Assembly (NCBI GenBank): GCA_021372515.1 | Contig: JAJFUG010000197.1 | Coordinates: forward strand, 1 to 41,762 | Origin: a bacterium | GTDB lineage: Bacteria > Gemmatimonadota > Glassbacteria > GWA2-58-10 | Direction of reading: 5' to 3' | DNA: 41,762 bases | Part shown: positions 22,027 through 33,374 of the stretch, piece by piece | Numbering within the stretch: position 1 is the first letter of the stretch | Layout: each line of letters begins with the position of its first letter | Notes under the pieces: generated by a model | Told to the model about the DNA's origin: nothing | The model's database searches: none | The model's input: the letters and a program-made list of their open reading frames with translations, nothing else | Position numbers and translations under genes: made by a program

Positions 22027-22053
22027 TAAAGTTTGAAAGCAGGATGCCGATTT
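22027..22053 (+). promoter_or_regulatory. Sigma-28 (FliA/WhiG-type) promoter P1
   Basis: TAAAGTTT (22027-22034), exactly 11 bases, then GCCGATTT (22046-22053). This matches the flagellar sigma consensus TAAAGTTT-N11-GCCGATAA at all eight -35 bases and at GCCGAT. Predicted start near 22061, about 500 bases upstream of the cargo gene. Confidence 0.75.
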
Positions 22054-22060
22054 AACTCTT

Positions 22061-22330
22061 TAGGCCAAGTATTTGAGTTCAGTCTTGACTCCCGGGGATT
22101 CCTGTGTCCGGGATAGGGGATGAACCGCCCGCTGAAAGCCTCAGGGCTCGAGGCGAGTGGTTGTGACTGTATTGTCCTTCCATGTCGGGCCAGGTGAGGT
22201 GTTTCAGACCGGAGGAAAAGATAAGGTAAAAAATTCCAGAGAAATTGTCCCTAAACATAAAATTCAGACTGCAAGATTCACTTTGTTCGACGCAGAGGCC
22301 GCGGAAACTGTGAGTTTCCAAACTTTTTTT
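22061..22330 (+). ncRNA. Candidate small RNA or long leader between sigma-28 P1 and a hairpin
   Basis: Transcription from P1 would meet the hairpin GGAAACT-GTG-AGTTTCC and a T run at 22303-22330, giving a transcript of about 270 nt with internal inverted repeats (CCCGG/CCGGG near 22090-22118; GCCTC/GAGGC near 22136-22152). No open frame in it looks like a protein. This is inferred only from the order of signals. Confidence 0.3.
22303..22330 (+). terminator. Terminator-like hairpin between the two sigma-28 promoters
   Basis: GGAAACT, loop GTG and AGTTTCC (22303-22319), then AAAC and seven T. The four bases between stem and T run make it less than ideal. The end also forms AAACTTT-TTTT-AAAGTTT, whose right arm is the -35 of P2. 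Confidence 0.4.
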
Positions 22331-22356
22331 AAAGTTTGAAGGGCCTGCGCCGATTT
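22330..22356 (+). promoter_or_regulatory. Sigma-28 (FliA/WhiG-type) promoter P2
   Basis: TAAAGTTT (22330-22337), exactly 11 bases, then GCCGATTT (22349-22356), identical in both conserved boxes to P1 while the spacer differs at most positions. Predicted start near 22364, about 200 bases before the cargo gene. Confidence 0.78.
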
Positions 22357-22409: not shown

Positions 22410-22561
22410 AATTTGAACAAAATTGACGGGAACGCTTGAAGGACAATATGTAAAGGAGGGGACATGGTATTCTGCTATGATACGGGGTGACAGAACAGCA
22501 GTGCTAGTTTCCAGGAGGGGAACTAATCTGAAGTAAACGAACTTTTCTCAAGGAGAGAAAA

Positions 22562-25500
22562 ATGAGAGCTTTACTTAAGGTGACCCGAGTAATCACCTTA
22601 CTCACTTTTCTGATCACGCTATCATACGTGCAGTCGTACGCGCAGAATACCGCCCCCGTGCCGACAACCTTTGAAATCCTCAGCCCGGCGGACGGTAACT
22701 TCCCGTTCCAGATCAATACAAGTTATGGAACGGCTACGGGCAAAAACCACCGGATTTTCTACGGTGGTGATTTTGCCTCTTCGTCCGTGGCCAACAGCCC
22801 GTTCCTGGGGTTCACCCTGCCAGCGGCGGCTGTTGCTACCGGCAACCTCACCGACAGCCGTCTGACCCTGGGCGGCACGGCGAGTGATATCGCCGGTGCT
22901 CTCGCAGGTGTCGACATTTTTGCGGTCGCCAACCTTCCCGGCATTGACCCGACCACGAATGTGGATCGTGTCGCCGCTGCTTTCGACGATGACGACGCGG
23001 GCGGAGCCGCCGGGGTTCTGGATTACCATGGCGCCAACGGCTTCATCGCGATCAACGAGGAAGATTCCCTGGTTATCCGTCTGACCGGCTATGTCGATCC
23101 TAATAATACGCTGGTGACGGCTCAGGGTGTTGCAAGTGATTTCTCCGGCGCCAACATGAAGAGCATGTCATATGCTTTCGATCTGGCGCACCCGTCCAAT
23201 GATTCGGCCAACGGCGTCAAATATGGCGTGGTCCCCTCCACTCTGCCGGCCGGCGCCAACTTCAACGGCGGGATTTTCACCTGGGTGCCCAATTTCATTC
23301 AGGGCGACGGCGCCACGGACAACAGCGTCCGCGGCGGGCGTTTCTTTGTCGACGCCAACATTTCCAGCGGCGCTACTGCTTCCGAGACAGCGACCAGAAC
23401 GGCGCTGGACACTGTCAGTGAGGATGCCACCGTTCACCCGACCAATCATCAGTTTATTGGACGTGGCAAGGGTGAGCTGAAAGACAGTCTGTACGTAATC
23501 CTGTTCACGGCCACGGATGACGGAATTCCGTCGAAAGTGGGTACGGATTCCCTGTTCATTATGGTCAACGACTCCATCGCCAACCCCGCGCCCATAATCA
23601 CCAAGCGCGAGGTCATCAACCGTCAGGGCCTGCTGCGCACCTATACCAAGAGCAGTGTGCAGTTCGCCTCTGATTCGCTCCTGCACTACAGCGAGGGTGA
23701 CAGCATCGTCATCACTTACTACGCTGTGGATCAGGACAGCGCGCGCGGTGAAATCAACGACGTCCTAGACTACTCGGTAGTCAATTGGAGCAATTTCATC
23801 CACCGCGCGAGCAGCCATATCGATTCGATGGCTCTGGACACCGTGTCGATAAAGACCCCTGGAACTCCGGGCTCTTTCCGCGTGCGGCTCAAGGTGGCCT
23901 TCAATGTGGGCGACACCGCGACCAGCGATACTCTCGCTCTCGTCGTCAAGGTGCATGATTCGTCAGGCAACGATGTTCCGGACACGATGCTGTTCAGGAT
24001 CGCCAACGTGAATCGCGCTCCGATCTGGGATTCGGACACCAGCAGCAAGCCTACACCTTACCACCTGGTGTACTCGCTCGATCCGGGCGCAGTCGATGCC
24101 GACAGCATCAATGATTTCCTGCCCATCGCTGTGGCGAATGGCCGGACAGATTCGATCACTTTCACCAAGTACATCTATGACCCGGACGTCCTGATCGGTG
24201 ATTCGCTGGGCAACAGCATCAGCTATTCGCAGGTCGGTTCGCCCTCGGGCGCCACGTTCCTGCCCAACGGGCTGATGGTGCTGCTGCTGACGAGCACCGA
24301 CACCACGAGCTATCCGTTCACCATTAAGGGCACGGACAGCTTCACTCCGGACCCGAAGACCGGCAACAAGGTGCTGATCCTGCGGGTGGCCCCGGAACCT
24401 CTGGTCGCCTCGGTGTACCCGTACACGGCCTATCCCGGCCAGAACATCACCCTCTTCGGCAGTGGGTTCGGTCTGTATGACGAGAAGAGCACCACTCCGA
24501 GCAAGGTCACTTTCCGTGCCCGCAACAGCTCCGGTGTGGCTCAGAACCTGGTTGCCACGATCAATTCCTGGGGTCGCGACCGGATCAACCTGACCGTGCC
24601 CGCCGGTGCTCCCGTTACGAAATGGGATATTACCAGAAACATATGGATTCCGGATACGATCCAGGTGAATTCGGCTGTGTTCAATTCGCCGACTTACTAT
24701 CCGTTTGTCATCTCGGAGTATGACAGCACCAGAGTGACCCAGTTCGAGCTGGCCAACCTGAGCTCGACCTCGGTGCGGTTAAAGTGGGAGACCGCTTTCT
24801 CCGGTATCGACAGCGTGGTGGTAGCTACAGAGGAAGATACGCTGCACCTGGACGACGCGGGCGTGACAGTCCCGTTTAATCCTGTGTTCAAGGTCACTAC
24901 GAGCCAGGTCAATTCGGCGGCGCAGGTTTACCACGGTGCGACCACCTCGACGGACCAGCTCCACTATGTCACGATCACCGACCTGGTGCCGAACAAGGTC
25001 TACCGTTTCTTCCTCGGCATGAGCAACGGGTATTTCTTCGGGGATACCTCAGGCCGGGTCAACGGCCCGTACAAGCCGGCCAAGATCAATCGTACAAGCC
25101 CGACCTTCAACAACGGAATCAAGGGCTTCAAGTTCAAGACCCTGCCGACGCAGTCTGCCAGCGGCGAGACGTTCGTGGTCGAGGGTGACGCCTACACCGG
25201 CACCGGTGCGGCGGTGAACTCCATCGTCACGGTGAAGGTGGTGGATTATCAGAATGTGTCCGACACCGCACTGGCCCTGACTTCCATCGTCCAGAGCGAC
25301 AGCTCCTGGTTCGTCAACCTGGGCAACGCCGTGACCGACACGTTCGATGTGCCGGACCGTGTGTTCCATCACAAGCAGGGTGATTACCTCATCGTCACCA
25401 TCGAGGGTGGCGCGGAAATCGGAACCAAGCAGTTCACCACCACGCGTGGCGCGAGCACCCCGCAGCGCATCGATTTCACGGCTACCGGCATCCGTCTGGC

Positions 25501-27130
25501 CCCGGTCGTGAACTATGACATGCGCCTGAAAGTCGGTCTGAACCTGGTCGGTCTGCCGGTGGAGCTGTTCGTCGGCGAGCCTGCCAACGCCGAGGCGCTG
25601 CTCAATCGCATCGCCGGGGGGCTGCCCTCGATCACCCGTTATGTTCCGGCCACCGGCACCCAGGAGACTATCGCCCGGGCCATCACCGGCACCACCGGAC
25701 GCGGGTTCATCGGCGCGGAAAACTTCAATCTGGCCCTGTTCCAGGGTTACTTCGTCAAGACGACCCAGGAACAGTATGTTACGCTCAATGGAAGCCTGAT
25801 CGGCGATTCGCTGGGAGTTCAGACTTTCCAGAATGCGGCTTACTACTGGATCAGCCGCCCGGCGCAGTCTTCCAATCTGTTCTTTGCTTGGAGCGCCAAG
25901 ATCATGCTGGCCAACATCGCCAACCTGAGCGAAATCTTCCGCTACAACGAAGAAGATCAGCATTGGGAGAGCGGCTACATTGAGCCGATCAGCGGTGCTT
26001 TCGGCGGCGATGATTTCCACATCGACGTGAGCGAGGGCTATGTCCTGAACATCACGGCCGCCAGCCAGTGGGACCCGAACACCCCGGCGAGCCTGCTGCT
26101 GGCCAATGCCTCGGCCAAGTTCGACAACCTGACCGAGAACATGCCGTCGCTGACTCTCAACACGGCCAACGCCACCAAGGCGCCTGAGGGCGCTTCGGCG
26201 ACCCTGCGCGGCCTGACCCTCACCGATGTCACCAGCTCGGCCGCCACGCTGTCCTGGCTGACTGACGTGAACGGCAAGGCCCTGGTGCGCTACGGCAAGG
26301 CCGGTGAGAGCCTGAACCAGACCGCCGAGTTCGACAGCAAGTCGCTGGATGGTGCCATGCGGATGGTCCAGTTGCTGAAGCTGGAGGCCGAGACCGAGTA
26401 TAATTACGAGGTCGTGATCAACGGCACCACCTACAACAACAACGGCCAGCCGTTCACCTTCACCTCGGCCAAAGTCGGCACCGGGCTGCCCTACACGGTG
26501 TTCGGCCGCCTGCTGGACGAGAGCGGCAACCCGCTGTCCAAGGCTCTGGTCTATGTCGAGCTGAAGAACAAGGATGAAGTCAGCCTGCCTCTGCTGGCCG
26601 TGACCGATGCGAAGGGTTACTGGGACATCAACCTGGCCAACTTCAAGAAGACGGCCGACGGTGAAGTGTTCCCGTGGAACGTGGGGAACGAGATTCTGGT
26701 GAACGCGATCTTCCAGAACGCCTCCATCCCGTTCCGCACCCTGGTCAGCGGCGCCAGCCCGCAGAACGTGGTCAAGGCCTCCGACCTCGACGCAATGGTT
26801 GCGGCGCAGAAGAAGGAAACCGCTCGGGTCGCTCTGCCCAAGGCGTTCGCCCTGGCGCAGAACTATCCGAACCCCTTCAACCCGTCGACCACCATCTCCT
26901 ACGACATCCCCGACTCGAAGGTCGAGGGTGTGGGTGTCGAGCTGAAGGTCTACAACCTCCGCGGCCAGCTCATCCGCAGCCTGGTCAACGAGGTCAAGCA
27001 GCCCGGCCAGTATGTGATCCAGTGGAACGGCCGGGATGAAAAGGGTGACATGGTCTCCTCCGGTGTCTACTTCTACCGGATCAAGGCCGGTGACTTCACC
27101 ACCACCCGTAAGATGGTCCTGCTGAAGTAA
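22562..27130 (+). CDS. Giant secreted surface protein with type IX sorting tail (paralog 1)
   Basis: This 1522-residue exported protein begins with a signal peptide (residues 1-28, cut after SYAQ). The mature start NTAPVPTTFEI and a beta-rich region to about 600 include a putative-Ig pattern (LPAGANFNGGIFTWVPNF). An IPT/TIG-like domain at about 611-720 (YPGQNITLFGSGFGLYDE) and a fibronectin-III-like domain at 722-820 follow. A carboxypeptidase-regulatory-like domain lies near 870-955 and a region starting GLNLVGLPVELFVGE at 992-1180. A second Fn3 domain at 1213-1305 and a second regulatory-like beta domain at 1306-1410 complete the body. The sorting tail at about 1426-1522 (FALAQNYPNPFNPSTTISYD ... 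GVYFYRIKAG) directs type IX export and surface anchoring. No enzyme motif is seen; an adhesin or structural role is inferred. A clear AAGGAG precedes the ATG. Confidence 0.82.
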   Translation: MRALLKVTRVITLLTFLITLSYVQSYAQNTAPVPTTFEILSPADGNFPFQINTSYGTATGKNHRIFYGGDFASSSVANSPFLGFTLPAAAVATGNLTDSRLTLGGTASDIAGALAGVDIFAVANLPGIDPTTNVDRVAAAFDDDDAGGAAGVLDYHGANGFIAINEEDSLVIRLTGYVDPNNTLVTAQGVASDFSGANMKSMSYAFDLAHPSNDSANGVKYGVVPSTLPAGANFNGGIFTWVPNFIQGDGATDNSVRGGRFFVDANISSGATASETATRTALDTVSEDATVHPTNHQFIGRGKGELKDSLYVILFTATDDGIPSKVGTDSLFIMVNDSIANPAPIITKREVINRQGLLRTYTKSSVQFASDSLLHYSEGDSIVITYYAVDQDSARGEINDVLDYSVVNWSNFIHRASSHIDSMALDTVSIKTPGTPGSFRVRLKVAFNVGDTATSDTLALVVKVHDSSGNDVPDTMLFRIANVNRAPIWDSDTSSKPTPYHLVYSLDPGAVDADSINDFLPIAVANGRTDSITFTKYIYDPDVLIGDSLGNSISYSQVGSPSGATFLPNGLMVLLLTSTDTTSYPFTIKGTDSFTPDPKTGNKVLILRVAPEPLVASVYPYTAYPGQNITLFGSGFGLYDEKSTTPSKVTFRARNSSGVAQNLVATINSWGRDRINLTVPAGAPVTKWDITRNIWIPDTIQVNSAVFNSPTYYPFVISEYDSTRVTQFELANLSSTSVRLKWETAFSGIDSVVVATEEDTLHLDDAGVTVPFNPVFKVTTSQVNSAAQVYHGATTSTDQLHYVTITDLVPNKVYRFFLGMSNGYFFGDTSGRVNGPYKPAKINRTSPTFNNGIKGFKFKTLPTQSASGETFVVEGDAYTGTGAAVNSIVTVKVVDYQNVSDTALALTSIVQSDSSWFVNLGNAVTDTFDVPDRVFHHKQGDYLIVTIEGGAEIGTKQFTTTRGASTPQRIDFTATGIRLAPVVNYDMRLKVGLNLVGLPVELFVGEPANAEALLNRIAGGLPSITRYVPATGTQETIARAITGTTGRGFIGAENFNLALFQGYFVKTTQEQYVTLNGSLIGDSLGVQTFQNAAYYWISRPAQSSNLFFAWSAKIMLANIANLSEIFRYNEEDQHWESGYIEPISGAFGGDDFHIDVSEGYVLNITAASQWDPNTPASLLLANASAKFDNLTENMPSLTLNTANATKAPEGASATLRGLTLTDVTSSAATLSWLTDVNGKALVRYGKAGESLNQTAEFDSKSLDGAMRMVQLLKLEAETEYNYEVVINGTTYNNNGQPFTFTSAKVGTGLPYTVFGRLLDESGNPLSKALVYVELKNKDEVSLPLLAVTDAKGYWDINLANFKKTADGEVFPWNVGNEILVNAIFQNASIPFRTLVSGASPQNVVKASDLDAMVAAQKKETARVALPKAFALAQNYPNPFNPSTTISYDIPDSKVEGVGVELKVYNLRGQLIRSLVNEVKQPGQYVIQWNGRDEKGDMVSSGVYFYRIKAGDFTTTRKMVLLK

Positions 27131-27196: not shown

Positions 27197-27420
27197 GGCT
27201 CCACCCGCGCCCGATCCGCACCCACCCCTCGAAACTTCCCTGTCCGACCTCCCGGGTATTCCTTAAAGCACGGCGCGGAAAATAATGCCCTGTTATTTGC
27301 TTTAAAATTGGCATAGAATGTGGCAAAAATTACCCTCATGCTGTTGCCGGCAGATTGCTCTCTTTTTTCGGTTGTGTCTAAGTGGTTGTAATTGAACAGG
27401 ATGGACACGGCATTCCTCTA
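27197..27420 (+). other. Upstream region of second giant gene with possible activator site
   Basis: No gene is seen. An 8-bp inverted repeat TTAAAGCA (27263-27270) / TGCTTTAA (27298-27305) lies about 120-160 bases upstream of the sigma-54 promoter, the usual distance for an enhancer-binding protein. A second GGCA-rich patch follows (TTGGCATAGAATGTGGCA, about 27308-27325); its GG-GC spacing of 11 is one base too long for a sigma-54 promoter. Confidence 0.35.
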
Positions 27421-27437
27421 TTGGCACGCATGTTGCC
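27421..27437 (+). promoter_or_regulatory. Sigma-54 promoter for the second giant cargo gene
   Basis: TTGGCACGCATGTTGCC matches the sigma-54 consensus YTGGCACG-N4-TTGC at every strongly conserved position, with GG (27423-27424) and GC (27435-27436) ten bases apart. Predicted start near 27448, giving a leader of about 77 bases. Confidence 0.8.
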
Positions 27438-27524: not shown

Positions 27525-30500
27525 ATGATGTCCCGTGTCCGTCCTCTCATCGCCTTAACGGCCCTGGCGCTGGTCCTGGTTCCGTTGGGACTGCTGGCGC
27601 AGAACACCGCTCCGGTGCCGACCACTTTCGAAATCATCTCTCCACCGGACGGCAACGCCTCCTCGCTGATCAACACGAATTTCAGCACAAACAAGCGTGT
27701 TTTCTACGGAGGCGATTTCTTTTACCCGACCTCGAACAACAACGTGGGCGGGTTCCTGGGTTTCACCGACATCCTTAACAAGAATACAACCGTGGTCGCT
27801 CGCGGCAACACCAGCGGCAGCCGTCTGACCCTGGGTGGAACCGAGTACGGCTCCGATCCGGATTTTGGAACGAGCGGTGGGGCTTCAGTGGCCAACCTGC
27901 CCGGCTCGCGCATATTGGCGACGAGTTACGATCCGGATGATCTCGGCGGCGGAAGCTACCTGGTCTACACCGGCATGAACGGTTTCATCGCGATCAACGA
28001 GGGTGACACCCTGGAGATCAACATCTCCGGTTTCATCGATCCGAACAACAAGATGGTGAAAGGGGATCAGGCCGCGGATCAGGATTTCACCGGCCGCAAC
28101 CTGAAAAGCCAGAACGGTGACGGCACATCCGGCTACGACGGGGCCAACAACGTCACTTTCACCGCCCTGAACCTTCCCGCCGGCGCCACTTTCGTGGGCA
28201 ACCGCCTGCGCTGGGTCCCCAGTTTCGTGCAGGGTGACGGCGCCACGGACAACAGTATCCACGGCGGACGGTATTTCGTGGATGCCAATATCTCCAACGG
28301 CAGCACAACTTCCGAAACCTCCAGCGCCGCCGGCGACACCAGCAGCAGCGCCGTCAAGGTCGGCGTCGGTGTGGGCGAACTGCGCGACAGCCTCTACGTC
28401 ATCTATTTCAAGGCCACCGACGACAGCAACCAGGGCAACGACACCGCCATCGACAGCCTGTTCATCATGGTCAACGACTCGCTGCCCAACCCCACGCCGC
28501 GCTTTACCAAGCGCACCATGCTGCGCAAGGATTCTCTGGGTGTGAGCCAGACCCGGGCTTTCAACTACCTGGCCGGAGTGGAGGACACCCTGTTCAGCGT
28601 GTTCGAGGGTGACAGCGTGGTGCTCACTTTCTACGCCCAGGACCAGGACAGCCTTCAGGGGGAGAGCAACGACCCCATCGCTTTCGGCCTGCTCTGGAAC
28701 GACAACCTCAAGGGTGTTCCAAAGGGCGGGACGACCACCGGCCCGATAGCCGGGTTCAACCAGTTCATCCACCGTGCCGGCACGGTCGACACCCTGCTGG
28801 CGGACACCGTCTCCAGTCTAACCGGCGGAGCGATCCCCAGTTTCAAGGTCAAGCTTCAGATCCCGTTCAACCTGGCCACCAGCGATGAGAAAGCCGATAC
28901 CCTGGTGGTAATGGTTTCCGACGGCACCACGATCGCGGCCGACACTTTCGCCCTCAAGGTGCGCAACACCAACCGCGCACCCATCTGGGACGGCGACAGC
29001 ACCAGTCTGCCGCCGGACAGCGCCCTGGTGTTCAGCCCCAATCCGGCGGCGGCCAAGCCCGACAGCATCCAGGTCGTGGGGCCTTTCACCCTGAACAACA
29101 ACCAGACCGACAGCACCTATTTCTCGCGCTACGTCTACGATCCCGATTTCCTCTGCGGGGACAGTCTGGGCTGGCCGCTCAGCTTCTCCCACAGCGGGGA
29201 CTATCAGGGCGCATTGAACACCAGCACGGGCCTGAACGTCTTCCGTCCGAGCGTGTCCGACACCCTGACCTACACTTTCAACATCACGGCCACTGACAAC
29301 AACAGCCATGGCGCCAAATCCAGCGCCCAGCAGGTGCGCTTCCGCGTGGCCCCGGCCCCCACAATCTCGCGGGTGACCCCGGCCAAGGGCTCGATCAACC
29401 AGGAGTTCACGATCTTCGGCAGCGGGTTCGGCCTGTTCGACCGCAACGTCGAGGACACGAGCAAGGTGATTTTCTACGCCACCGACCTCAACGGCCGCCG
29501 TCAGAACATAGCGGCCAAGATCATCTCCTGGGCCAAGGACAAGATTGTCGCCTCGGTGCCCTCGGGCGTTCCGGTCTCGCGCCTCGACCGGAGCCTCAGC
29601 TTCCTGGTGCCCGACACGATCAAGGTGATCAGCGCGATCTACGGCGGGTTCGACACCTACCCGTTCACCGTGCTGGTCGATTCGGGCGGATACGAGAACA
29701 TCGAGGTGGTCAATATCTCCGCCACCAGCGCCATGCTCCGCTACCGCACGAATTTCAACGGCGCCGACAGCATCGTGGTGGCGGCCAGCAGCGACACGCT
29801 GGACATCCACAGCGCGGCGTTCACCGATGTGAATAAGTTCAACGGCTTCCCGACATTTGTCGAATACAACTCCGGTCTGTCCGAGATCCGCAGCTCGGTG
29901 ACCGTGTTCAAGGACGAGACCTCGGCGGATGACGGGATCCACGTGATCCAGTTGACCAACCTATCGCCCGGGACGCTCTACCGCTTCTTTATCGGCTCGT
30001 CCAACGGCGTGTTCGCGGCGGACAGCCTGCGCAACATCAACGGGCCCTACCGGCCCAAGAAGGTCGACCGCACCACCGCGGCCAAAAACTCCACCCTGAC
30101 CGCGTTCAAGCTGCGCACGCTGCCGTCCAGCGGAACCAACAGCAGCATGTACACGCTCAAGGGCAAAGTCTACTATTCGGGCGGCGCGGCCGTCAACGCC
30201 ACGGTCCGGCTCAAGGTGGTGGATGCCACCAGCACTGCCGACACCTCGCTGCCACTGGTTGCCACCGTGGGCAGTGACAGCCTCTGGGAACTGAACCTGG
30301 CCAACCTGCGTAAGTCGGACGGCAGCGGGTTCAGCCACGCCCAGGGCGATTACCTCCTGTTGGAGTTCGACGGGGCCGAGAAGGGCTTCGAGCAATACGA
30401 CACCCTGCGCGCCGCCGACGCGGCCAGCCCGATGGCGATCAACAAGGTCAAGCTCGTGCCCTACGTAAGCTACGACCTCGAACTCAAGACCGGCCTGAAC

Positions 30501-32045
30501 CTGATCGGCCTGCCTCTCAACCTGTTCAAGGGTCAGCCCTCCACGGCCCACGCCATTCTGGGCATGATACTGGGCGGCACCCCGGCCCTGTCGCGCTATG
30601 TCAGCTCCACAGGCATGCAGGAGTCGATCACCCGGGCGATCAGCGGCTCCTATGTTGGCGCGGCCGATTTCAACATCGCGATCGAGGATGGCTATTTCAT
30701 CAAGGTGAACTCCGAGAACCACCTTCTGCTCGAGGGACGTGCCTTCACGCGCAACGTGCCGATCATCCAGTTCCCGGCCGCCGGACAGTTTTTCGTCTCG
30801 CGCCCGGCGCAGGATGATATGTTGTTCCGCTCCTGGGACGCCAACAGCGTGTTGAAGGCCGTAACCGGTATACAGGCAATCTATCGTTACGAACCCAGCA
30901 CCCAGGAATACAAGCAGTATTTCAAGGACGGCACGAGCTATCGGGGTGAGAACTTCGGTATCGACGTGGGCCAGGGCTACATCTTCCAGGTCACCGCGGC
31001 CTCGAGCTGGAACCCCAACGTCAGTGGCACCCTGCTGGCTGCGGACAACACTTCGGGCGCCACCAAGACGCCCTCGATCGCCCTCGATCTGGGTAACCGC
31101 TCGGTCGCGGGCAACGCTCCGGGGATCCATGTGTCCAATGTCACCAGCTCGGCGGCCACGTTCACCTGGGCCGCCACGGTCCAGACGCCGGGCGTGCTGC
31201 ACATGACCGATCCGGACGGCAGGGAGACGCTGGTGCAGCCCAGGACCCTGGAGGGTGGGTTCAGCTACGCCCTGGTCAGCGGCCTGAAATCCGGCGTCGA
31301 GTACCGTTACTCGGTGGACGGCCTGAGTGGCCAGAGCGTGGCCCAGACAATGGCTGGCACTCTGACCACGGCCCAGTTGGGCGCCGGGCTTAACCTCTAC
31401 ACTCTGTACGGCCGCCTGACCGACAGCCAGGACCAGCCCCTGGCCGGGATGCTGGTGTTCCTCAAGCTGACCGGGGCCGAGAGCGGCGAACAGACCGGGA
31501 CGATCTGCGCCGCGACCGACCGGGACGGCATGTGGACGCTCAACCTGGCAAACCTGAAGGAAAGTGGCAGCGGCATACCCTACAAGTGGTCGGCCGGCGA
31601 CAAGATAGACCTGACCGTGCTGGGACTGGGCGTGAGCCGCAGCTTCTCCTCAACGGTCAAACCGGAAAGCCCGCACAATTTCGCCCTGGACCTGCAGGCC
31701 GGTTCGGAGAAGACCGCAACGGACGCCAGCAGCGGGAATGTTCCGGCTGTGCTGCCCAAGTCTTTCAGCCTGGCCCAGAACTCGCCCAACCCGTTCAACC
31801 CCTCGACCACCATTCGCTACGCGGTGCCCGAGGGCGCGGGACTGGTCTCGGTGCGGCTGGATGTGTTCAACCTGCGCGGCCAGATGATCCGCAACCTGGT
31901 GACTGCTCTGCGTGAGCCGGGCGAGTACCAGGTGGAATGGGACGGCACCGATTCAGCCGGGCGCCGCGCCTCCAGCGGGGTCTACTTCTACCGCCTGACC
32001 ACACCCTCGTTCCGGGCCATGCGCAAGATGATCATCCTCAAGTGA
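27525..32045 (+). CDS. Giant secreted surface protein with type IX sorting tail (paralog 2)
   Basis: This 1506-residue protein is a tandem paralog of the preceding one. After a signal peptide (residues 1-26, cut after LLAQ) the mature protein begins with the same NTAPVPTTFEI as paralog 1. It repeats the same domain order: a beta region with LPAGATFVGNRLRWVPSFVQ and QGDGATDNS, an IPT/TIG-like domain near 610 (INQEFTIFGSGFGLFD), an Fn3-like domain, a regulatory-like beta domain and the region starting GLNLIGLPLNLFKG. A second Fn3 domain near 1195, another beta domain and the sorting tail at about 1410-1506 (LAQNSPNPFNPSTTIRY ... GVYFYRLTTP) follow. ATG 27525, with AAGGAG just upstream, is preferred to the longer frame from 27477, because the signal peptide then begins correctly. 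The two genes even share the leader string TTCTCAAGGAG before their starts. No enzyme motif seen. Confidence 0.82.
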   Translation: MMSRVRPLIALTALALVLVPLGLLAQNTAPVPTTFEIISPPDGNASSLINTNFSTNKRVFYGGDFFYPTSNNNVGGFLGFTDILNKNTTVVARGNTSGSRLTLGGTEYGSDPDFGTSGGASVANLPGSRILATSYDPDDLGGGSYLVYTGMNGFIAINEGDTLEINISGFIDPNNKMVKGDQAADQDFTGRNLKSQNGDGTSGYDGANNVTFTALNLPAGATFVGNRLRWVPSFVQGDGATDNSIHGGRYFVDANISNGSTTSETSSAAGDTSSSAVKVGVGVGELRDSLYVIYFKATDDSNQGNDTAIDSLFIMVNDSLPNPTPRFTKRTMLRKDSLGVSQTRAFNYLAGVEDTLFSVFEGDSVVLTFYAQDQDSLQGESNDPIAFGLLWNDNLKGVPKGGTTTGPIAGFNQFIHRAGTVDTLLADTVSSLTGGAIPSFKVKLQIPFNLATSDEKADTLVVMVSDGTTIAADTFALKVRNTNRAPIWDGDSTSLPPDSALVFSPNPAAAKPDSIQVVGPFTLNNNQTDSTYFSRYVYDPDFLCGDSLGWPLSFSHSGDYQGALNTSTGLNVFRPSVSDTLTYTFNITATDNNSHGAKSSAQQVRFRVAPAPTISRVTPAKGSINQEFTIFGSGFGLFDRNVEDTSKVIFYATDLNGRRQNIAAKIISWAKDKIVASVPSGVPVSRLDRSLSFLVPDTIKVISAIYGGFDTYPFTVLVDSGGYENIEVVNISATSAMLRYRTNFNGADSIVVAASSDTLDIHSAAFTDVNKFNGFPTFVEYNSGLSEIRSSVTVFKDETSADDGIHVIQLTNLSPGTLYRFFIGSSNGVFAADSLRNINGPYRPKKVDRTTAAKNSTLTAFKLRTLPSSGTNSSMYTLKGKVYYSGGAAVNATVRLKVVDATSTADTSLPLVATVGSDSLWELNLANLRKSDGSGFSHAQGDYLLLEFDGAEKGFEQYDTLRAADAASPMAINKVKLVPYVSYDLELKTGLNLIGLPLNLFKGQPSTAHAILGMILGGTPALSRYVSSTGMQESITRAISGSYVGAADFNIAIEDGYFIKVNSENHLLLEGRAFTRNVPIIQFPAAGQFFVSRPAQDDMLFRSWDANSVLKAVTGIQAIYRYEPSTQEYKQYFKDGTSYRGENFGIDVGQGYIFQVTAASSWNPNVSGTLLAADNTSGATKTPSIALDLGNRSVAGNAPGIHVSNVTSSAATFTWAATVQTPGVLHMTDPDGRETLVQPRTLEGGFSYALVSGLKSGVEYRYSVDGLSGQSVAQTMAGTLTTAQLGAGLNLYTLYGRLTDSQDQPLAGMLVFLKLTGAESGEQTGTICAATDRDGMWTLNLANLKESGSGIPYKWSAGDKIDLTVLGLGVSRSFSSTVKPESPHNFALDLQAGSEKTATDASSGNVPAVLPKSFSLAQNSPNPFNPSTTIRYAVPEGAGLVSVRLDVFNLRGQMIRNLVTALREPGEYQVEWDGTDSAGRRASSGVYFYRLTTPSFRAMRKMIILK

Positions 32046-32125: not shown

Positions 32126-32375
32126 CAGGGAGAACCTTGCTCAGGCTTTGGCATTCGGGGCTGGCAGGGGAGATTTGTTTTTCCCGGCGGCCGGAAAAAT
32201 TTGCCAGCCATTCCCGGGCGGACGGCCTAAACAAGAAAAAGCCGAGATGCGTTATGCCGGCGCAATGGGTTGCATAGCCCTATGTTTTCGTTTTCGGGGC
32301 TGGATGTAAGAGGGCTACTGCTGTGATTCCGCCGTGGCGGAAAAGGAATGTTCCGCGGCCGAAAGGGAGCAAGCT

Positions 32376-32392
32376 GTGGTATGGATATTGCA
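32376..32392 (+). promoter_or_regulatory. Probable sigma-54 promoter for the dockerin operon
   Basis: GTGGTATGGATATTGCA has GG (32378-32379) and GC (32390-32391) exactly ten bases apart and keeps TGG-A-G at -24 and TTGCA at -12. Predicted start near 32403, with a leader of about 55 bases. Confidence 0.5.
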
Positions 32393-32456: not shown

Positions 32457-33374
32457 ATGCGCCCTTCATCCACCATCCTGACTCTGGCTCTGGCCGCCCT
32501 GATTTTCCATGTGACGCCCTCGGTTGCCGCCGAGATCAAAATGACCGGTCTGGCCTGCACCGACCTGTCCATCACCAGCGCCCGCGTTTCCTGGCTCACC
32601 GACGCCCAGACCCTCGACAACCGGGTCGAGGTGCGGGAAAAGGGCTCCGATTCGCTGCTGGTTTTCACGGACGAATACGCGAGCGAGACCTACACGCACC
32701 TGATCGCCCTGATCGGCCTCAAGGTGGGCACGGAATACGAGTACCGTCTGCGCTCCGACAGCACACTCTGGGACAACAGCGACCGCTGGTACTCGTTCAA
32801 GACTTTCCTGGAGACTGTGGGCGGCGGGACACCCTGGACGGCCCATGGCAGCCTGTTCGATGGGCAGGGCGAGCCGCTGGACCGCTGCCTGGTGCGTCTG
32901 CAGGTGAGACGGGCCAACGGTGACCGTTCGGTAGTGAAGACCGTGCTGAATAAAAGGGGCGGGACCGGTGAGGTGGCCGGGCAGTGGGACGTGGACATGA
33001 CGACCGTGCGGGAGGAACTCACCGGCTATGCGTTCAATCCCGGCGCCGGCGACCGGCTGTTCATCGAGTACTTTCCCAACTACTGGACCAACGACACGGA
33101 CAGCTCGGTGGTGCTCCAGGGAAGCGCCAGCTTTTTCATTCCGGCCCACACGGTTCAGGTCTACGATCCGAACCTGGGGATGCGCGGCGACCTGGACAAC
33201 AACGGAAAAGTGAACGTTTTCGACCTTCTCGATATCCTTAAAGTTCTGGGCGGCTCGAAGCCGGTCGCCGGTGACCAGCGCCTGGCCTTTGCGGCGGACG
33301 TGGACGGCAACGGCCGGTACGATGTCTTCGACCTGCTGGCCCTTTTACGGTTGATGAGCGGCAGTGCAGCCTGA
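32457..33374 (+). CDS. Secreted Fn3-like protein with C-terminal dockerin
   Basis: This 305-residue exported protein has a signal peptide (residues 1-23, ending PSVAA). A fibronectin-III-like domain at about 28-125 follows (LACTDLSITSARVSWLTDAQ ... GTEYEYRLRSD), then a beta domain at about 130-235. A type I dockerin fills the last 65 residues, with two calcium-binding loops each followed by a helix: GDLDNNGKVNVFDLLDILKV and ADVDGNGRYDVFDLLALLRL. Dockerins plug into cohesin domains of other proteins. No cohesin or type IX tail is seen in this protein, so it is probably Sec-exported and docked onto a partner encoded elsewhere. ATG 32457 follows AAAGGA; the longer frame from 32334 runs through the promoter region and lacks a signal sequence. 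The next gene begins 32 bases downstream. Confidence 0.8.
   Translation: MRPSSTILTLALAALIFHVTPSVAAEIKMTGLACTDLSITSARVSWLTDAQTLDNRVEVREKGSDSLLVFTDEYASETYTHLIALIGLKVGTEYEYRLRSDSTLWDNSDRWYSFKTFLETVGGGTPWTAHGSLFDGQGEPLDRCLVRLQVRRANGDRSVVKTVLNKRGGTGEVAGQWDVDMTTVREELTGYAFNPGAGDRLFIEYFPNYWTNDTDSSVVLQGSASFFIPAHTVQVYDPNLGMRGDLDNNGKVNVFDLLDILKVLGGSKPVAGDQRLAFAADVDGNGRYDVFDLLALLRLMSGSAA

Follow-up and report, generated by a model that had tools for sequence, protein, structure and literature searches.

The window analyzed here, a stretch of 41,762 nucleotides from a 4.87-Mb genome (G000), carries the genes of two adjacent giant proteins, which are paralogs sharing 40% identity (Table 1). Both proteins start, as judged by eye, with a signal-peptide-like segment, and both carry at the opposite end a T9SS type A sorting domain (NCBIfam TIGR04183), with scores of 38.3 and 27.0 bits for the two giants (cut-off 23). 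Giant protein 2 displays in addition weak Ig/TIG/fn3-type matches and, at its end, a FlgD_ig match; Pfam lists this tail as FlgD_ig, not as Por_Secre_tail. A solved-structure search with P0001 gave no match at E 0.01, and the AlphaFold model of residues 860–1506 is all-beta, with a mean pLDDT of 57 and a pTM of 0.35.

Table 1. Features of the giant protein locus discussed in the text
Feature	Position	Strand	Remark
Distal second sigma-28-type promoter of giant protein 1	22027..22053	+	Copy also in G002 and G003
Sigma-28 (FliA)-type promoter of giant protein 1, TAAAGTTT-N11-GCCGATTT	22330..22356	+	
Giant protein 1 (1522 aa, P0002)	22562..27130	+	Paralog of giant protein 2; T9SS type A sorting domain
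UAS1 dyad GGAAAATAATGCC, proposed activator site	27277..27289	+	144 nt upstream of the promoter's first base
UAS2 dyad GGCAAAAATTACC, proposed activator site	27322..27334	+	99 nt before the first promoter base; 45 nt after UAS1
Sigma-54 (−24/−12) promoter of giant protein 2	27421..27437	+	Near-consensus, promoter-positioned, kept in 5/5 genomes with the gene
Giant protein 2 (1506 aa, P0001)	27525..32045	+	
Single dyad GGAAAAATTTGCC	32193..32205	+	183 nt before the promoter at 32376
Second sigma-54-like promoter, ahead of the dockerin/PAP-N-like gene: GTGGTATGGATATTGCA	32376..32392	+	3 mismatches to consensus
Dockerin type I / PAP-N domain gene	32457..33374	+	Downstream of the second sigma-54-like promoter

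Among the 61 genomes searched, full-length relatives of giant protein 2 (56–62% identity) were found in four of five genomes from the same family, the four (G001, G002, G003 and G005) belonging to three other genera; the G002 copy is cut at residue 1233 by the contig end. In G004 and 55 other members of the phylum, the best scored matches covered the tail region only, or there were none, with only nine of the first-look candidates scored in several genomes; a search of genome contigs returned one locus, where the match was limited to the tail domain. SprA_N is encoded in six of nine genomes, including G000, G002, G003 and G005, and was not found in that nine-genome search in G001 (91% complete, with giant protein 2) or in G004. 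Both giants are probably displayed via the T9SS. FliD is present in all five giant-bearing genomes, and FliD_N occurs without a full-length giant in three of the nine genomes (G004, which is 88% complete, G007 and G008). The giants are therefore not needed for the flagellum and look like a family add-on, not a core flagellar part.

A conserved sigma-54 promoter precedes giant protein 2

The site at 27421–27437, TTGGCACGCATGTTGCC, reads 27421 TTGGCACG CATG TTGCC 27437, with the −24 GG at 27423–27424, the −12 GC at 27435–27436 and 10 bases in between. The sigma-54 promoter consensus is YTGGCACGNNNNTTGCW, near YTGGCAC-N5-TTGC, and the site departs from it at the last base alone. An earlier sequence-only reading had assigned to this site all the strongly conserved sigma-54 bases at the right spacing, 88 bases before the start codon; the letters and the positions of the GG and GC elements bear this out, and the ATG at 27525 indeed lies 88 nt past the −12 C. 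The predicted +1 falls at about 27448, 12 nt beyond the −12 base. In the window, the exact pattern TGGCACGN4TTGC occurs once, at this very site; the other 123 matches carry two or three mismatches, and the 124 matches in all are fewer than the shuffle mean of 167.

A genome scan for sigma-54 sites, a kind of check that the sequence-only reading had proposed, proved favorable as regards position. All eight exact matches to TGGCACGN4TTGC in the genome lie outside called ORFs and no more than 200 nt ahead of a gene start on the same strand, and 32 of the 39 sites fitting the looser TGGYAYN5TTGCH are in promoter position (four are coding and three far), against a background of 3.6%, taken over the positions of eight sampled stretches, the ORF starts being those of our own codon-usage caller. 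As for numbers, TGGCACGN4TTGC with at most one mismatch gives 74 genome sites versus 94 for the reversed control, and TGGYAYN5TTGCH gives 39 versus 20. Site counts by themselves are thus weak or contrary, and the case for a sigma-54 promoter rests on position and conservation.

Conservation was assessed with the orthologs. The site is also found before giant protein 2 in G001, G002, G003 and G005, with one to three mismatches relative to the consensus, the bases shared by the five promoters being those of the GG and GC elements, whose spacing is fixed. In a scan of 300 13-nt windows from −230 to +70, anchored on the promoter, the promoter itself is the most conserved window among the five orthologs, and the dyad pair described below is the next block; the Shine–Dalgarno box CTCAAGGAG, which is beyond the range of the scan, is also invariant. 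A chance match was rejected in view of the conservation in five orthologs and the enrichment of such sites in promoter position.

The genome also encodes the proteins that a sigma-54 promoter calls for. RpoN, whose absence had been named beforehand as refuting the promoter, is present as a single PF04552 match of 215.7 bits and carries the RpoN-box-like sequence ARRTVAKYR. The domain of sigma-54 activators (enhancer-binding proteins, EBPs), likewise anticipated, gives 39 matches in the genome, 35 strong and four marginal. The genes behind the sigma-54 sites include flgF/G, flgB, fliD, flbD, fliK, fliN, cheW, two hsp20 genes, dnaK and two histidine kinase genes, all typical sigma-54 clients.

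Tandem upstream dyads resemble those of flagellar sigma-54 promoters

Two dyads of the approximate form GGNA-N5-TRCC, UAS1 and UAS2, lie upstream of the promoter. In all five genomes the distance from the first base of the promoter back to the start of the dyad is 98–99 nt for UAS2 and 140–144 nt for UAS1; UAS1 is present in every ortholog, with a G005 copy one base shorter. Conservation of a promoter across genera together with that of a tandem upstream site is what is expected for an EBP. A gapped pattern derived from giant protein 2 (the sigma-54 core plus one dyad 70–100 nt away) gave seven matches in a set of seven genomes, from which G005 was absent, and none in the reversed controls. 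These matches correspond to four giant protein 2 promoters, one fliK-like gene in G001 (located beside flgD/flgE-like genes and called fliK by position and N-terminus) and two genes of G002 and G004 that are presumably AMIN-like, as judged from their sequences; Pfam reports TPRs alone in the AMIN/TPR gene of G000. A search for the exact dyad in G000 gave 18 matches versus 12 for the reversed controls and, of the two giant protein 2 dyads, recovered UAS2 alone.

Using a matrix built from nine of the ten giant protein 2 sites (the shorter UAS1 of G005 was excluded), we scored dyad pairs at the sigma-54 promoters of G000, and found tandem dyads like those of giant protein 2, 41–45 nt apart, at the promoters of fliD, fliK and flgF/G. 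After giant protein 2 itself, the best pairs are those of flgF/G (28.7), fliD (24.7), fliK (21.2, with the dyads at −100/−145 as in giant protein 2) and the AMIN/TPR gene (20.2), followed by those of C72b, which matches no Pfam family (18.1), the dockerin gene (16.7), the TPR gene C102 (16.5) and flgB (13.0). The seven promoters grouped by annotation as flagellar/chemotaxis score above the 30 others (37 of the 39 promoters, C197a and C197b being omitted), with p = 0.0026 for pairs and 0.0047 for single sites, values that are indicative because it was early hits in these very data that suggested the flagellar hypothesis; p-values from shuffling of matrix scores are based on first-order Markov resamplings. 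A clear dyad pair was not found at flbD, fliN and cheW, i.e. at three of the seven flagellar/chemotaxis sigma-54 promoters of G000; the flgB pair is weak, and C72b and C102, two genes without a known flagellar role, outscore it.

Conversely, a matrix built from flagellar sites alone recovers both UAS1 and UAS2 and gives the giant protein 2 pair 25.6–31.5 in all five genomes. The best score among 34 other promoters of G000 (the 39 minus the three training promoters and C197a/b) is 15.7, reached by the AMIN/TPR gene, shortly downstream of fliA, and the median is −5.4. This result is supportive, not independent, since the training sites were chosen with the giant-derived matrix. The fliD promoters of the relatives point in the same direction: in G001, G002, G003 and G005, TGGCATAACTYTTGC is accompanied by a dyad 122–125 nt upstream; a second dyad lies another 43 nt away in G001, G002 and G003, and the corresponding one of G005 is poor. 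G004, with about 105 nt of sequence before its fliD promoter, was left out of this comparison. When the regions preceding fliD in five genomes were compared without any matrix, no 13-mer upstream of the promoter was better conserved than GGCAAATTATTCC, the dyad; fliD had been picked after its G000 promoter scored well. We also considered that the dyads might be general sigma-54 enhancers, an idea we rejected as most non-flagellar sigma-54 promoters display no clear pair.

A candidate for the cognate activator is encoded on contig C133, where a CheZ-like gene and flgB are immediately preceded by the genes of a PAS histidine kinase and of a receiver–AAA–HTH_8 EBP that has a GAFTGA loop. This EBP scores below the cut-offs of the curated NCBIfam models of flagellar EBPs (387.7 bits for FlbD and 333.4 for FlgR, each with a cut-off of 750). 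The genome has 34 other strong EBP domains; we propose the C133 protein as the most likely activator of giant protein 2.

Sigma-28-type promoters precede giant protein 1

The region upstream of giant protein 1 is of a different kind. The motif TAAAGTTT-N11-GCCGATT is present in the four genomes with upstream sequence, and the distal copy in three of them; G001 is outside this comparison because its contig ends at giant protein 1. The sigma-28 consensus is TAAAGTTT-N11-GCCGATAA-like, a form that the giant protein 1 site matches. In G000, TAAA-N15-GCCGATWW has eight matches versus two for the reversed controls: two are the giant protein 1 sites, two precede flagellin-like genes of C208, and the remaining four (C19, C31, C50 and C175) have no obvious flagellar gene downstream. 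The same type of pattern is found upstream of flagellin-like genes in G003 (C25). FliA is encoded at C103, with a score of 258.7 bits (cut-off 189.6), the one match of ten above the cut-off. A GCCGAT block aligned in five genomes upstream of fliD is preceded by TAAAG in G001, G003 and G005 and by TCAAG in G000 and G002, with a spacing one base longer, hence a looser fit to sigma-28; the fliC1 site is likewise loose. A sigma-54 promoter was also considered for giant protein 1 and rejected: G000 offers no more than a three-mismatch site, TTGGCCAGATGCATGC, its −12 GC is, as read by eye, not kept in the aligned relatives, and no conserved sigma-54 site was found among them upstream of the gene.

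Several minor features of these regions deserve mention. Window positions 22225–22237, GGTAAAAAATTCC, are kept in all four genomes upstream of giant protein 1; they resemble the flagellar dyad, and no conserved sigma-54 site follows. The leader of giant protein 1 (22464–22525) contains an eight-codon mini-ORF, MVFCYDTG*, with its own Shine–Dalgarno sequence and a start 95–98 nt before the gene; the relatives have MPLYNDTG* (G002) and MLIYYDSR* (G003 and G005). A hairpin-like stretch, TAGTTTCCAGGAGGGGAACTA, follows, with a fold z of only −0.7. Mini-ORF and hairpin-like stretch might possibly form a leader peptide or a translational switch. In C208 (L185, 427–10345), four genes were named flagellin-like from their N-termini, without a family search; the third and fourth have about 650 and 760 nt between the sigma-28-like site and the ATG, and the leaders of fliC2 and fliC3 show, by eye, Shine–Dalgarno sequences and the mini-ORFs MTG* and MKLSG*. 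Finally, in four genomes (C31:6019–6045 of G000, which is L162, and L154, L166 and L175), TAAAGT-N-GCCGATWW lies between genes labeled by eye as EF-G-like and ParA-like, and the sequence shortly downstream of it has no called gene on the same strand; the motif is perhaps the promoter of a small RNA.

A proposed flagellar hierarchy for the two giants and its alternatives

The sequence-only reading had argued that a sigma-54 promoter should make this surface protein signal-dependent. RpoN, the EBPs, the cross-genus promoter and the conserved tandem upstream site support such regulation, and the likeness of the upstream site to that of several flagellar sigma-54 promoters allows the expected signal to be specified: probably a step of flagellar assembly. 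We consider it likely that the two T9SS-tailed paralogs belong to the flagellar hierarchy, giant protein 2 as a middle gene (sigma-54 and a flagellar EBP) and giant protein 1 as a late one (sigma-28). RNA polymerase–RpoN would wait at 27421–27437 as a closed complex, which an EBP bound to the dyad pair (99 and 144 nt upstream) would open. It would be the flagellar EBP, most likely the receiver–AAA–HTH_8 protein of C133, that binds the dyads, and giant protein 2 would be made together with the products of the flagellar rod, hook-length and cap genes. Giant protein 1 would be transcribed later by sigma-28/FliA, alongside the flagellins, and both proteins would cross the inner membrane by means of their signal peptides before being shown, probably, through the type IX system. 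We infer that their task is a surface function in the motile state, such as attachment, surface interaction or support of motility or the flagellum. That they are part of the flagellum or physically serve it, as T9SS-exported partners on the outer surface made in two steps, giant protein 2 with the hook and cap genes and giant protein 1 with the filament, seems quite unlikely; if true, it would constitute a structural or regulatory link from type IX secretion to flagella.

Other readings of the same elements have to be weighed. Given 35 strong EBP domains and the fact that related HTH_8 EBPs can have look-alike sites, a true sigma-54 promoter might answer to a separate, non-flagellar EBP with a similar site, so that the giants would respond to another surface or envelope signal. 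Many sigma-54 promoters of the genome do serve genes without a known flagellar role (a T9SS-tail protein (C110b), an FG-GAP protein, heat-shock genes), and dyad pairs score at C72b and C102 too, even if promoters of such genes mostly display no clear pairs. We nevertheless regard this reading as unlikely: the dyad, its tandem spacing of 41–45 nt and the placement at fliK are the same as in giant protein 2, and the sister gene has a sigma-28-type promoter. That sister promoter could itself be a coincidence or belong to another sigma factor, leaving giant protein 2 alone linked to the flagellum, a view compatible with the four pattern matches lacking an obvious flagellar gene and with the loose fit of the fliD and fliC1 sites. 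It is very unlikely in light of the conservation of the motif and of its distal copy, the occurrence of the pattern before flagellin-like genes in C208 of G000 and C25 of G003, and the excess over the control in G000.

It might still be argued that the dyads and the −24/−12 match are conserved for some other reason, for instance because they bind a repressor or overlap a sigma-70 promoter, and that giant protein 2 does not depend on sigma-54. Sites with at most one mismatch are, after all, no commoner than the reversed pattern. This possibility appears extremely remote when set against the GG and GC elements, kept at fixed spacing in five genomes, and the genome-wide positional enrichment of sigma-54 sites. 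The flagellar hierarchy with a middle and a late giant is the reading we favor.

Relation to known systems

The promoter of giant protein 2 is ordinary in kind and the flagellar logic is known; it is the wiring and the cargo that are unusual. In the account given in PMC7064773, activation of the sigma-54 rod and hook genes by FlgSR (Campylobacter), FlrBC (Vibrio) and FleSR (Pseudomonas) needs MS ring, rotor and export-apparatus proteins. The present genome resembles these systems, as they are described there, in having RpoN, a FliA gene, a flagellar locus that encodes a receiver-type EBP and a PAS-type kinase, and rod, hook-length and cap genes with sigma-54 promoters (PMC7064773). It differs from them in that similar putative activator sites, recognized by sequence, stand before a 1506-aa T9SS-tailed protein. 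The C133 protein itself is unlike FlgR and FlbD in falling below the cut-offs of both models. Feds are small sigma-28 genes, whereas here two giant paralogs with T9SS tails would be split between the sigma-54 and sigma-28 classes. What is shared with the Campylobacter Feds is that genes outside the flagellar apparatus would be under the flagellar hierarchy, non-flagellar Campylobacter genes coexpressed with the flagellum being among the work cited in PMC4626219.

Sigma-54 has been viewed as a controller of the bacterial exterior, namely exopolysaccharides, flagella, lipids, LPS, lipoproteins and peptidoglycan (PMC3162934). Our findings agree with that view in tying sigma-54 to envelope, flagellar and surface functions, and differ from it in the type of target, the terms "surface protein" and "adhesin" occurring zero times in the main text of that article. 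The giants are like T9SS cargo (TIGR04183/Por_Secre_tail) in their C-terminal sorting domains above the TIGR04183 cut-off, in a genome that has SprA_N, and unlike known cargo in their predicted regulation by flagellar sigma factors. In the literature library searched, no paper joined T9SS, flagella, a sigma factor and FliA, and no T9SS-tailed pair split between the flagellar classes of sigma-54 and sigma-28 was found. In little-studied bacteria, giant surface proteins are often without a functional handle; here, the promoters supply one. They suggest that the production of type IX cargo can be coordinated with that of flagella, and they predict that the giants appear with flagellar assembly, giant protein 2 earlier than giant protein 1.

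Other genes with sigma-54-like sites

Downstream of giant protein 2, TGGTATNNATATTGCA stands before the next gene (in the window, the dockerin gene) in all four genomes with that stretch, as a weaker sigma-54-like site; G002 lacks the region because its contig ends inside giant protein 2. The dyad of this promoter is a single-site match in G000, G003 and G005 and is weak in G001, with no conserved pair. Elsewhere in G000, a 193-aa protein ending in a T9SS/FlgD-Ig tail (L118, C110) has a sigma-54 site upstream and no clear flagellar dyad pair. Near-consensus sigma-54 sites also lie upstream of the two hsp20 genes (L107 and L122; C55 and C116) and of dnaK (L130; C161), which suggests that heat-shock genes of this lineage are under sigma-54 control.
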